From: Akkermansiaceae bacterium
GTDB lineage: Bacteria; Verrucomicrobiota; Verrucomicrobiia; Verrucomicrobiales; Akkermansiaceae
NCBI GenBank assembly: GCA_030725745.1
Contig: JANRFH010000002.1
Coordinates: forward strand, 5,848 to 69,847
Length of the DNA stretch: 64,000 nucleotides
Direction of reading: 5' to 3'
Both the position numbers and the translations under genes were made by a program. The notes below the pieces were generated by a model. It worked only from the letters and a program-made list of their open reading frames with translations. It made no database searches and had not been told where the DNA came from. Below are positions 17,883-21,328 of the stretch, one piece after another. The stretch's first letter is position 1. Each line of letters starts with the position of its first letter.

Positions 17883-18167
17883 TCAATCGACGAGGTTGTC
17901 GATGCGCTGTGCTAGCTCGATGTCGGAGTCGGTGACGCCGCCGACATCGTGGGTGGTGAGCTTGAGGGTCACCTTGGTGTGCTTGATCGTGATGTCCGGG
18001 TGATGCTGTGCTTCCTCGGCGATCTCGCCGACGGTGCTGACAAAATCGATACCGTCCATGAACTCCTCGAACTCAAAAACGCGAGTGATGTATTTCTTCT
18101 CAACTTCCCACTCGGGGCATTTCTTGAGGGCGGAGAGCAATTCGTCTTCTTCTAGCAGGTCTGACAT
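17883..18167 (-). CDS. 4a-hydroxytetrahydrobiopterin dehydratase (pterin-4a-carbinolamine dehydratase)
   Basis: A 94-residue enzyme that dehydrates 4a-hydroxytetrahydropterin, recycling the cofactor of aromatic amino acid hydroxylases. It may also serve in folate or molybdopterin-linked pathways. The family signature E-x-x-H-H-P-x-x-x is clear in EEAQHHPDITIKHTKVTLKLTTHD (residues about 50-73), with the catalytic His pair and the Asp-Ile segment. Length agrees with the family (about 95-110). No hydroxylase gene is adjacent. It ends at a strong terminator. Confidence 0.93.
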   Translation of the reverse strand: MSDLLEEDELLSALKKCPEWEVEKKYITRVFEFEEFMDGIDFVSTVGEIAEEAQHHPDITIKHTKVTLKLTTHDVGGVTDSDIELAQRIDNLVD

Positions 18168-18336
18168 GGATAATGGGAGTTGTTGTGATGCGTTTCACAA
18201 AGATTGGACGGATGCTTTCCGGGTTGGCAAGCCCGTCTTTGATTTTTCCGGGAAATAGATGGCTCTTTGCAAAAGGTGCATGCCTGTTATCGCTCCGTGT
18301 TGTTGCGATTTTCGGCGAATCGTGCAAGGTTTCGGT

Positions 18337-18780
18337 ATGAAAAACCCTTTGCTCCTAGTTTCGGCGGTAGTCGTTGCCTTGGCCTTTGTATCCTGCGCGA
18401 CTTCCTCTACGCCGGAGCAGCGCATTGCCTCAAGGTCGGCGGCCTACGAGAAACTGAGCCAAAAACACAAGGATTTGGTGAGTCGTGGCGAGATTTCGGA
18501 GGGCATGAGCAAGGAGGCTGTTTCGCTGGCATGGGGCAGCCCAGACGGCACGGTGGAAGGTCTGCGTAATGGCAAAGAAATGGAGCGATGGGATTACCAA
18601 GGAACGCGTTCGGTCGTTACCAATAACTTTTTCGGAGGGTATCGCACCGGATACGGATATGGTTATCGCTATTCAGGCTTCGGCGGTGGCTTTGGCCCCA
18701 CGATCAGCTATGTCCCTTACCGCAAAGCGTCGGTATGGTTCGTAAGAGGGCGGGTGGATGAGTGGGAGCGCAGCCAATGA
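18337..18780 (+). CDS. Hypothetical lipoprotein with Gly/Tyr-rich C-terminal part
   Basis: A 147-residue predicted lipoprotein. The lipobox ends at Cys20 (LAFVSC). Residues 35-90 include DLVSRGEISEGMSKEAVSLAWGSPDG. This resembles the SmpA/BamE-type motif (G-M-x-x-x-x-V-x-x-x-x-G-x-P) used by small envelope lipoproteins. The C-terminal part is rich in Gly and Tyr (GYRTGYGYGYRYSGFGGGFG) and ends in a basic stretch. An earlier in-frame start at 18259 would precede the signal peptide. It directly precedes the two L,D-transpeptidase lipoproteins and may share their envelope role. Confidence 0.75.
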   Translation: MKNPLLLVSAVVVALAFVSCATSSTPEQRIASRSAAYEKLSQKHKDLVSRGEISEGMSKEAVSLAWGSPDGTVEGLRNGKEMERWDYQGTRSVVTNNFFGGYRTGYGYGYRYSGFGGGFGPTISYVPYRKASVWFVRGRVDEWERSQ

Positions 18781-18838
18781 CCCGTTCACGCAAGGAGTTG
18801 GCTTGCCACTTTTTCTCCTCCGGGCATCCTTCGCGCAA

Positions 18839-19516
18839 ATGAAAATGCAGCGATTCCTTTTTGCGATCTTGGCTCTCGCCCTTATGGCGAGCTTTACATC
18901 ATGCACGATGAATGCTGCAGGCGGCGGGATTAATTCCTACAAGGACTACGACAGGCCGGCGAAGCTTCCGACCAATCCCTCTGCAGTGGTGGTGAAAGTC
19001 TCGCTGAGTAAGCAGCGCGTCTATGTGACGGAAGGTGGGAATATACTTCTCATTATGCCGGTGGGAATCGGCGTGCCGTCCACGCCCACTCCCACCGGGG
19101 ATTTCCGCATTTACAACAAGACCCAGAAGTATCGGTCACCGGATCACGGGTTTTCTTACAAGGGTGACAAGGTGAAGCCCACCGCTCTGACGAACAAACC
19201 TTCCGGCTGGAAGTTCATCGGCACGCCGCTGCCTTACTGGTGTGAGATAAAGCCGGGAATCAGTTTTCACACAGGCTGGGTGAAGCATTCGCCTTCTACA
19301 AACGGCGCCATCCGCATGCATGAGAATCTTGCGCCGAAGTTCTTCCGCCTCGTTTCGAGCGGCACTCCGGTAAATATTTCCTACCGGCAGGCTGAAGATG
19401 AGGATCACTCGAACATCCCGCTCCCTCCTGATGCCGGTCCGTTACCCGACTACCCGAACTCAATGTACATCGGCGAGGGCTACTTCAGCGAACACAAGAC
19501 GCCGAAGTTCGACTGA
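18839..19516 (+). CDS. L,D-transpeptidase-like (YkuD) lipoprotein without catalytic Cys
   Basis: A 225-residue protein with signal peptide and lipobox (Cys22, SFTSC) and a YkuD domain from about residue 50 (KVSLSKQRVYV, TPTPTGDFRIY, SFHTGWVKH). YkuD enzymes use an active-site Cys in S-H-G-C to make 3-3 crosslinks or attach proteins to peptidoglycan. Here residues 154-158 read T-N-G-A-I: the His is Asn155 and the Cys is Ala157 (codon 19307-19309). The next gene, a close paralogue of the same length, has S-H-G-C-I at the same positions. The fold is otherwise kept, so this is a likely pseudoenzyme that could bind peptidoglycan or regulate its twin. Confidence 0.88.
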   Translation: MKMQRFLFAILALALMASFTSCTMNAAGGGINSYKDYDRPAKLPTNPSAVVVKVSLSKQRVYVTEGGNILLIMPVGIGVPSTPTPTGDFRIYNKTQKYRSPDHGFSYKGDKVKPTALTNKPSGWKFIGTPLPYWCEIKPGISFHTGWVKHSPSTNGAIRMHENLAPKFFRLVSSGTPVNISYRQAEDEDHSNIPLPPDAGPLPDYPNSMYIGEGYFSEHKTPKFD

Positions 19517-19672
19517 AGTGTTTTCCCTAGGCGCGTGTAAGGCTCTTGTGCCTGCCGTGTTGGCGATAATTGCCCGCCTTCGCTGATTACCCGAAGCCCG
19601 GTTCGCCGGATTGAGGGCAGCTATCAAGGAGCAGGCTTGCCATTTTTTCTACGTCGGGCATCCTGCGCCACG

Positions 19673-20350
19673 ATGAAAATGCAGAAAATCTTATTGGCGC
19701 TTGCGGGGCTCTATCTCGTCGCGGGTCTTTCCTCCTGCACGATGAATTCCGCAGGTGGCGGGATCAATTCCTACCAGTCCTACGATCGGCCAGCGAAGCT
19801 TCCGAGCAACCCTTCCGCAGTGAAAGTGAAGGTCTCGCTGAGCAAGCAGCGCGTTTATGTGATGGAGGGCAACGATATGCTGATGGTGATGCCCGTTTGC
19901 GTTGGCAAAGCTGAGACGCCCACCCCTACGGGAAATTTCCGTATCTTCAACAAGGAGCACAAGCACCGCGCCTATACTCATGGATACGCCTACAGCGGAA
20001 ATTCCGTGAAGCCCAGCTACCTAAAAAACAAGCCCTCCGGGTGGGGCTTCAAGGGGACGCCGATGCCCTACTGGTGCGAGTTCAAGCCCGCCTACGGCTT
20101 CCACACCGGCTGGGTGAAACACTACCCCGCCTCGCACGGCTGCATCCGTATGCATGAGAATCTTTCCCCGAAGTTTTTCCGCCTCGTTTCCAACGGCACT
20201 CCGGTCAATATCTCCTATTCTCAGCCTGAGGATGCGGAACATTCGAATATCCCGCTGCCTCCCGATGCTGGTCCGCTCCCCGACTACCCGACCTCGATGT
20301 ATGTGAGCGACGGTTTCTTCAGCCAACACAAGGCACCGAAGTTCGACTAA
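19673..20350 (+). CDS. L,D-transpeptidase (YkuD family) lipoprotein
   Basis: A 225-residue lipoprotein (lipobox at Cys22, GLSSC) with a complete YkuD domain. It has KVSLSKQRVYV, the TPTPTGNFRIF strand, the first active-site His in GFHTGWVKH (His144) and the catalytic S-H-G-C-I-R-M motif (His155, Cys157). It would form 3-3 peptidoglycan crosslinks or anchor proteins in the periplasm. The C-terminal tail NIPLPPDAGPLPDYP is shared with the upstream paralogue. Both genes are also preceded by a similar leader of about 50 nt (AGGAG, GGCTTGCCA, GGGCATCCT), so they come from one tandem duplication. Confidence 0.92.
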   Translation: MKMQKILLALAGLYLVAGLSSCTMNSAGGGINSYQSYDRPAKLPSNPSAVKVKVSLSKQRVYVMEGNDMLMVMPVCVGKAETPTPTGNFRIFNKEHKHRAYTHGYAYSGNSVKPSYLKNKPSGWGFKGTPMPYWCEFKPAYGFHTGWVKHYPASHGCIRMHENLSPKFFRLVSNGTPVNISYSQPEDAEHSNIPLPPDAGPLPDYPTSMYVSDGFFSQHKAPKFD

Positions 20351-20455
20351 AGACTTTTCCCGCACACACGCCGCATGTCCCGCAGGCTTGCGTCGTGTTT
20401 TTTTGGAATCCTCTTGCATCACAGGGACATCGGTTGCCTTGTCTAAGGATTAGAT

Positions 20456-21328
20456 ATGAGCAAATTTTCTTCGATTCTGACACACCCCGGAAGCTCGCAT
20501 AAAGACGAGTTTCTCGCCTGCTGCCTGCTGGTGGCGGTGAATAACGCAACCATTTACCGCCGTGAACCGAGGCAGGAGGATCTCGATGATCCGGCCGTAG
20601 CCGTCGTCGATGTCGGTGGAGAGCACGATGCTGCACGGGGAAATTTCGATCATCATCAGTTTCCGAAAGACCACCCGCCAACCTGTTCGCTCAGCCTCGT
20701 GCTGATGGATCTGGGTCTCTATGAGGACGCGCGGGAGTATTGCGATTGGCTGGAGGTTGCGGAGTGGTTCGATACCCGCGGCCCCGTCGAGACCGCCGCA
20801 TGGCTCGGCGTCGAGCGCGAGCTGCTTTCCAAGCTGAACTCCACTGTGGATCTGACTCTCCTCCGCCGATTCGCGGGCATGAGCGAGATCCGCCCCGGCG
20901 AGCCGATGTGGGAGGTCATGAAATGGGTTGGCTCCGATCTCATCGGCTACCTGAAATCGCTGCGTGAAAAGCTCAACGAGATCGCCCGCATCAGCGAGAT
21001 CTGGGAGCTGAATCACGAGTCGGGCCCGTTCCGCATCCTTTTCCTGCCTCGCTCGGAAAACCTCTCGGAAGACGCCTCCGCAGGTCTCGCGCGCTACGCC
21101 GCCGGGCTACCTGAAGATCAGCAGGTTATCGGCATGGTCTATCCAGACAGGCGCGGCAAGGGCTTCGCCCTCTCCCGTTTCAATGACAACCTCGCTCTGG
21201 ATTTCACGCTCATCGAAGCAGAGGAAGACGTGCATTTTGCCCATGCCCGCGGCTTCGTCGCGAAATCCTCCGCCACGGAATTCGGCAGGCTTGCTGAGCT
21301 ACTCATAAAGAGCCGCGTGGTGCTTTGA
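20456..21328 (+). CDS. MYG1/UPF0160 family protein (DHH-type metal hydrolase)
   Basis: A 290-residue protein of the MYG1 family. The opening THPGSSHKDEFLACCLL is the family's THxGxFHxDE signature and FDHHQ near residue 66 matches its DHH metal motif. A later GMVYPDRRGKGFALSRF segment and HARGFVAKS fit the C-terminal half. Eukaryotic MYG1 is a 3'-5' RNA exonuclease; the role of bacterial members is untested. No signal peptide is present. Length is a little short of eukaryotic members (about 340). It is alone on the plus strand, with a CACGAAG-type inverted repeat after its stop. Confidence 0.85.
   Translation: MSKFSSILTHPGSSHKDEFLACCLLVAVNNATIYRREPRQEDLDDPAVAVVDVGGEHDAARGNFDHHQFPKDHPPTCSLSLVLMDLGLYEDAREYCDWLEVAEWFDTRGPVETAAWLGVERELLSKLNSTVDLTLLRRFAGMSEIRPGEPMWEVMKWVGSDLIGYLKSLREKLNEIARISEIWELNHESGPFRILFLPRSENLSEDASAGLARYAAGLPEDQQVIGMVYPDRRGKGFALSRFNDNLALDFTLIEAEEDVHFAHARGFVAKSSATEFGRLAELLIKSRVVL

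Follow-up and report, generated by a model that had tools for sequence, protein, structure and literature searches.

A tandem pair of YkuD-domain lipoproteins in an Akkermansiaceae genome, one of them a probable maintained pseudo-L,D-transpeptidase

Can a YkuD-domain lipoprotein that has lost its nucleophilic Cys be kept by selection, and for what role? This question is raised by two adjacent genes, herein referred to as A and B, in the genome of an Akkermansiaceae bacterium (3.42 Mb in 57 contigs, with 12 YkuD-domain loci in total). The analyzed window is a stretch of 64,000 nucleotides of this genome (assembly GCA_030725745.1, contig JANRFH010000002.1, positions 5,848 to 69,847 of the forward strand). 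Our preferred reading, with a probability of about 0.62, is that selection maintains A as a pseudo-L,D-transpeptidase which serves the envelope in a non-catalytic role, split from the enzyme B. The coordinates of the features are collected in Table 1.

Table 1. Genes, leaders, and active-site codons of the A/B locus (positions in the window).
Feature	Coordinates	Strand	Remark
Pterin-4a-carbinolamine dehydratase gene	17883..18167	-	conserved neighbour
lipo0, small lipoprotein gene	18337..18780	+	no Pfam family
A leader	18791..18838	+	holds GGCTTGCC; 37 of 48 bases match the B leader
Gene A, YkuD-domain lipoprotein, probable pseudoenzyme	18839..19516	+	225 aa; T-N-G-A replaces [ST]-x-G-C
A codons 141-142	19259..19264	+	Ile-Ser; Tyr-Gly in 81/81 canonical relatives
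A codon 144	19268..19270	+	His, catalytic base position, retained; role as reported in PMC3605043
A codons 155-157	19301..19309	+	Asn-Gly-Ala, nucleophile gone
B leader	19625..19672	+	
Gene B, YkuD-domain lipoprotein, canonical paralogue	19673..20350	+	225 aa; S-H-G-C
B codons 155-157	20135..20143	+	His-Gly-Cys, nucleophile present
Gene with N-terminal MYG1_exonuc (PF03690) match	20456..21328	+	downstream neighbour in nearest relatives

The original prediction described A and B as two lipoproteins of equal length that align without gaps, share similar upstream leaders, and stem from one duplication, and each of these points was confirmed. The two proteins are identical in 157 of 225 amino acids, and their genes in 493 of 678 nucleotides. 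Both match the Pfam YkuD family (PF03734), with 60.2 bits for A and 76.1 bits for B against a cut-off of 23.4, and the matches to NCBIfam were all far below cut-off. A lipobox Cys22 follows a hydrophobic N-terminus in A and B, where signal peptide and lipobox were judged by eye, and is invariant over 41 aligned sequences. The agreement between the two leaders (Table 1) suggests that a short upstream piece was copied along in the duplication. A and B are sisters in the protein tree (SH-aLRT 94) and in the codon tree (97.4/98); a placement of A outside the clade gave a far worse tree (lnL -6549 vs -6512) and was rejected. Of the two, B is the closer match to single-copy orthologues, and the next nearest sequence to the pair by distance comes from genome G022. 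An origin of A as an old paralogue common to the relatives was also rejected, since no second tandem copy was seen among the matches listed for 72 further genomes of the genus, including incomplete ones. Genome G064 carries two copies, located on separate contigs; one of them (L110) clusters with a sequence from a different family within the order.

The nucleophilic Cys of these enzymes lies in the motif [ST]-x-G-C, which reads S-H-G-C in B and T-N-G-A in A. As predicted, A has Asn155 and Ala157 at the positions of His155 and Cys157 in B; His144 is present in both. A one-base sequencing error at position 157 can be set aside, because the Cys/Ala difference involves two bases (TGC/GCC). The further claim that A has lost its catalytic His was incorrect. 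In Mycobacterium tuberculosis LdtMt2, His336 is reported as the catalytic base of YkuD enzymes (PMC3605043), and His352 is reported to belong to the oxyanion loop and to contact the substrate (PMC3605043, PMC11410929). By motif alignment, His336 corresponds to His144, His352 to position 155, and Cys354 to position 157. The base is therefore retained in A, and the lost His155 is not an essential residue. The motif as given in a review leaves the residue preceding Gly-Cys open (PMC12729407). The view that loss of His155 alone makes a dead enzyme was rejected, since Bacillus subtilis YkuD aligns with S-K-G-C, having Lys at this position, and His is missing from 53 of 145 family sequences. Among motifs matched by regular expression, 46 of 82 read SHGC or THGC; the underlying 96 loci include three of the A/B subfamily, two repeats, and five matches in a wrong frame.

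To what extent the loss of Cys157 is peculiar to this genome can be judged from the orthologue family. In total, 260 genomes were searched and 144 had a match, yielding 146 distinct sequences from 143 genomes. The named relatives of the present genome are mostly metagenome genomes of Akkermansiaceae and Verrucomicrobiaceae. The active site is readable in 145 sequences; the remaining one (L196) covers the first portion of a gene divided between two contigs and ends before it. Position 157 is Cys in 139 sequences, Ser in three (G192, G071, and G077), Thr in two (G092 and G064), and Ala in A only. The objection that the substitution is unique to this genome holds for A itself, but five other genomes of the family have also lost the Cys. 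Of the 145 sequences, 92 retain His155, 135 retain Tyr141, and all retain His144. The losses are nested, the six Cys-less sequences lying inside ten Tyr-less ones and these inside 53 His-less ones: both Tyr141 and His155 are missing from 6/6 Cys-less sequences, and His155 from 10/10 Tyr-less sequences.

With the trait columns masked in tree building, Cys157 was lost on four to five separate branches. Five changes are needed to explain the losses; G192 and G064, which belong to the same poorly resolved group, possibly share one of them. Four independent pairs were found on well-supported branches, and Cys and Tyr changed in the same direction in 3.4 of the four on average and never in opposite directions, a number of pairs with which a sign test cannot reach 0.05; nor is the nesting independent evidence for each sequence. 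Fisher p-values ignore kinship, and no proof is drawn from them. For G092, G192, G071, and G077, no close member of the subfamily was found besides the Cys-less protein. In G064, a second, unlinked copy bears the Cys. Other deviations were also seen in the family. Residues at about 100-125 are shortened in G071 and G077 (201 aa) and likewise in G004 (203 aa), which retains the Cys. Eleven sequences of genus g24 (L177, L179-L182, L184-L186, L189, L190, and L197) have Gly, in one case Ser, before Gly-Cys, with the Cys kept.

AlphaFold2 models based on 41-sequence alignments have mean pLDDT values of 90.2 for A and 89.8 for B. The conserved positions of the family were defined as the 90 positions with at least 90% conservation among 79 relatives having both His155 and Cys157. 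A departs at 11 of them (M64T, V77I, A100S, A106S, K127I, M131L, F137I, Y141I, G142S, H155N, and C157A) and B at one. The 78 canonical relatives of sufficient length have 0-15 departures, with a median of two, and three have at least 11. Several departures in A appear to lie beside the active site, nearness at positions 100, 131, 137, 141, and 142 being judged by sequence position and not by distances; in the A model, residues 141 and 142 precede His144 in the same strand. Tyr141 is changed in 0/81 canonical sequences, in 4/30 sequences that lack His155 and have Cys157, and in 6/6 Cys157-less sequences. The changes of A at positions 141, 155, 157, 100, and 131 fall where other Cys-less lineages are also altered. 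A has kept its predicted fold and C-terminal tail as well as His144, Arg159, and the lipobox Cys. Thus, the earlier statement that everything else in the fold is kept is right for His144, but must be amended for the 11 changed positions, which include some around the pocket. Additionally, another Cys was noted in this region: Cys135, in the sequence PYWCE (19241-19243 in A, 20075-20077 in B), occurs in 132 of the 146 family sequences, including 6/6 Cys157-less ones, and aligns with Leu in B. subtilis YkuD.

Selection was analyzed over 204 codons in a tree of 16 sequences, comprising A, B, and 14 relatives, using a simple model with one rate per branch, written for this analysis, under high synonymous change. 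Omega on the A branch was 0.14, which does not differ from the rest of the tree (0.12), and omega = 1 was rejected (2dlnL 44.7). Neutrality of A was rejected on the first topology as well (2dlnL 42.7). With equal synonymous lengths for A and B, an assumption that was not rejected (2dlnL 3.1), omega was 0.185 for A and 0.046 for B, and this difference had a 2dlnL of 24.0. When the synonymous length of A was fixed at 1 to 8 units, its omega ranged from 0.44 to 0.05; the omega values are loose because of the large synonymous change. Gene A is under purifying selection: the catalytic residue is lost and the gene is constrained. The original prediction of a maintained pseudoenzyme rather than decay is in line with these values (omega of A 0.14-0.185). 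The proposed search for a conserved A version gave a divided answer: neutrality was rejected, but A was found in this genome alone, which gives no measure of conservation between species. Constraint was also seen in Cys-less relatives. For the gene of G092, omega was 0.134 and neutrality was rejected (2dlnL 35.1). The genes of two species, G071 and G077, both with Ser157 in a TDGS motif, have 57 base differences (13, 4, and 40 at codon positions 1, 2, and 3) and 14 differing residues of 201; omega between them was 0.052 over 201 codons, with neutrality rejected (2dlnL 99.7).

A could instead be a young duplicate on its way to loss, with a frame that is intact by chance. Its occurrence in one genome only would fit this explanation, as would its faster protein change (end branch 0.47 vs 0.13 for B) and the 11 changed positions of the 90. 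We regard it as quite improbable, however, because 101 of the 185 nucleotide differences between A and B are at third codon positions (51 and 33 at the first and second), omega = 1 was rejected, the full-length frame, lipobox, and tail of A are intact, and several of its changes coincide with positions altered in other Cys-less lineages. Partial relaxation could be an alternative source of the faster change of A and its departures from the conserved positions.

In many relatives among the matches listed, a membrane protein gene is followed by the genes of the pterin dehydratase (reverse), the lipoprotein, and the YkuD lipoprotein. Since A and B occupy this conserved place, A hardly resembles a mobile insertion. 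An assembly or sequencing artefact, or a chimera of strains in a metagenome bin, might be suspected in a genome of 57 contigs whose named relatives are mostly metagenome-assembled; it is nevertheless very improbable. A and B differ in 27% of bases and lie on one contig in the conserved gene order, the change from Cys to Ala takes two bases, and the assemblies of the Cys-less genomes G192 and G077 are single-contig.

A homologue of lipo0 was found within 900 bases upstream of the YkuD lipoprotein gene at 75 of the 115 loci with enough flank (the flank of two more was too short). It is present at four of the six Cys-less loci and absent from 40 loci, including those of G071 and G077. The product of lipo0 is a possible candidate partner of the YkuD lipoprotein. 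The heptamer GGCTTGC was observed 38-70 bases before the starts of four genes, namely the pterin dehydratase gene (18227-18233, reverse strand), A (18800-18806), B (19634-19640), and the MYG1-like gene (20385-20391), and similar CTTGC elements precede several orthologues. Its candidacy as a shared promoter element was dropped, the window containing 19 copies against 14.2 expected. Scans for promoters, terminators, tRNAs, and Rfam families gave nothing useful.

Other YkuD subfamilies were used as a control in nine genomes (G000, G022, G033, G004, G092, G192, G071, G077, and G064). Pfam searches found 107 YkuD loci in these genomes, 11 belonging to the A/B subfamily and 96 to others. Of the latter, 91 were read without overlaps, L115 was read separately, and four were left out. 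The Cys is present in 91/91 loci read, including L226, L242, L287, L296, and L305. The loss of Cys therefore looks peculiar to the A/B subfamily, in a comparison that is descriptive, given that a Cys-less member occurs in six of the nine genomes, among them G000, and was the reason for choosing five. Eight of the loci (L003, L265, L276-L278, and L281-L283) form another YkuD subfamily of these genomes, which has S-H-A-C, with Ala for the usual Gly. In the single-contig genome G004, four partial YkuD matches (L279, L284, L291, and L294), two of them with stops, lie within about 4 kb (C1:310232-314240). This row looks like decayed tandem copies, in contrast to the intact A.

Activity of A through a moved nucleophile, either Cys135 or a Ser/Thr near positions 153-157, was also considered. 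Cys135 is shared by all Cys157-less members, five of the six replacements at position 157 are Ser or Thr, and serine-dependent beta-lactam turnover is reported for a YafK-family protein (PMC13400389). However, A is the exception among the six, with Ala at 157, and Cys135 is equally common where Cys157 is present, so that it looks structural or subfamily-specific; the aligned residue of B. subtilis YkuD is Leu. We consider a moved nucleophile improbable. It is likely that A is maintained and is not an L,D-transpeptidase.

A different role was suggested for A, that of a regulator or decoy which pairs with B or competes with it for the stem peptide, thereby tuning cross-linking. The tandem arrangement, the alike leaders, lipobox, and tail, and the retention of His144 and Arg159 would suit such a role. 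The Cys-less proteins of G092, G192, G071, and G077, however, have no twin, each being the only close member found, with the qualification that these genomes hold 8-12 other YkuD loci and that G064 has its unlinked Cys-bearing copy. Regulation of B or competition with it is an unlikely explanation, and, more generally, an action of A on or with B would be rather doubtful.

The loss of Cys in A under constraint, together with the repeated independent losses in relatives, suggests a second, non-enzymatic job in the envelope. The preferred reading of A as a maintained pseudoenzyme starts from what the sequences show: a YkuD-domain lipoprotein of Akkermansiaceae was duplicated in tandem. B remained canonical under strong constraint, and A lost Cys157, Tyr141, and His155 while the predicted fold, His144, Arg159, lipobox Cys, and tail were retained under purifying selection. 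Relatives took the same path several times, in four genomes with the sole copy, His155 being kept least and Cys157 best. Before the duplication, the ancestor may already have served the envelope as a lipoprotein with a further, non-catalytic function; the duplication would here have divided the roles between B as the enzyme and A as a binder. The retained cleft would most likely bind peptidoglycan stem peptides or a partner, holding the envelope to the wall. The invariance of His144 in nucleophile-less proteins fits binding, since its counterpart in LdtMt2 is reported to contact the diaminopimelate residue of the stem (PMC11410929). Stem-peptide binding as the specific mechanism of A is proposed tentatively. 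Against it, with Tyr141 and the residue at 155 lost and the pocket otherwise changed, A may have given up binding of the stem peptide or may have another ligand.

A broader scheme can be put forward tentatively. The orthologue group would slide repeatedly from enzyme to non-enzyme, each time losing first His155, next Tyr141, and last Cys157; its main job in the envelope would not be transpeptidation, and His144 would serve ligand binding. The tandem pair would then be a case of both jobs caught while splitting into two genes. The name L,D-transpeptidase is usually assigned on the basis of the domain, a practice that would misname several proteins here. Repeated loss of the nucleophile under purifying selection provides a natural test of non-chemical roles of YkuD domains, for which close relatives differing in their Cys, Tyr, and His states provide ready-made comparison sets. 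These proteins also bear on the linkage of outer membrane and wall in the little-studied Verrucomicrobiota.

Among known structures, a match search run with the A model found B. subtilis YkuD (1y7m; Z 15.0, 109 residues, rmsd 2.0, 23% identity) and LdtMt2 (4gsq; Z 14.2). B. subtilis YkuD, the namesake of PF03734, has a fold like that of A, and the segments with the base His and G-x-[IV]-R-M-H align; it differs in having the Cys, in S-K-G-C, with no His before Gly-Cys. By their entry titles, 4gsq, 3tx4, and 8pxy cover LdtMt2 and its Cys354 Ala/Ser mutants, and the Cys-less state of A resembles these mutants; 8pxy is by title a complex with natural substrate, though not one stated to sit in the active site of the mutant. 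The mutants, however, carry a man-made change in a different domain layout. Compared with LdtMt2, A is without a counterpart of His352, and the Tyr141 of its own family is lost too.

Dead paralogues kept beside active ones are a known kind. ClpR is described as a catalytically dead partner retained beside active paralogues in one pathway, with a fold other than that of A. EnvC and NlpD, likewise of other folds, are degenerate LytM activators, dead paralogues kept beside active ones. The likeness of A to ClpR, EnvC, and NlpD would be one of working principle. No naturally Cys-less YkuD protein was found in the literature, in a search that missed most subscription journals, so that absence from print is unproven. 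For Lpg1514, a YafK-family protein, serine-dependent turnover of beta-lactams is reported (PMC13400389). Like A, it has a YkuD-type scaffold, and the reported activity is independent of the canonical Cys; unlike A, which has Ala at the site, it still has this residue (Cys174) and uses another Ser (PMC13400389). This YafK-type protein, with its reported Cys-independent activity, is the nearest precedent found for A.
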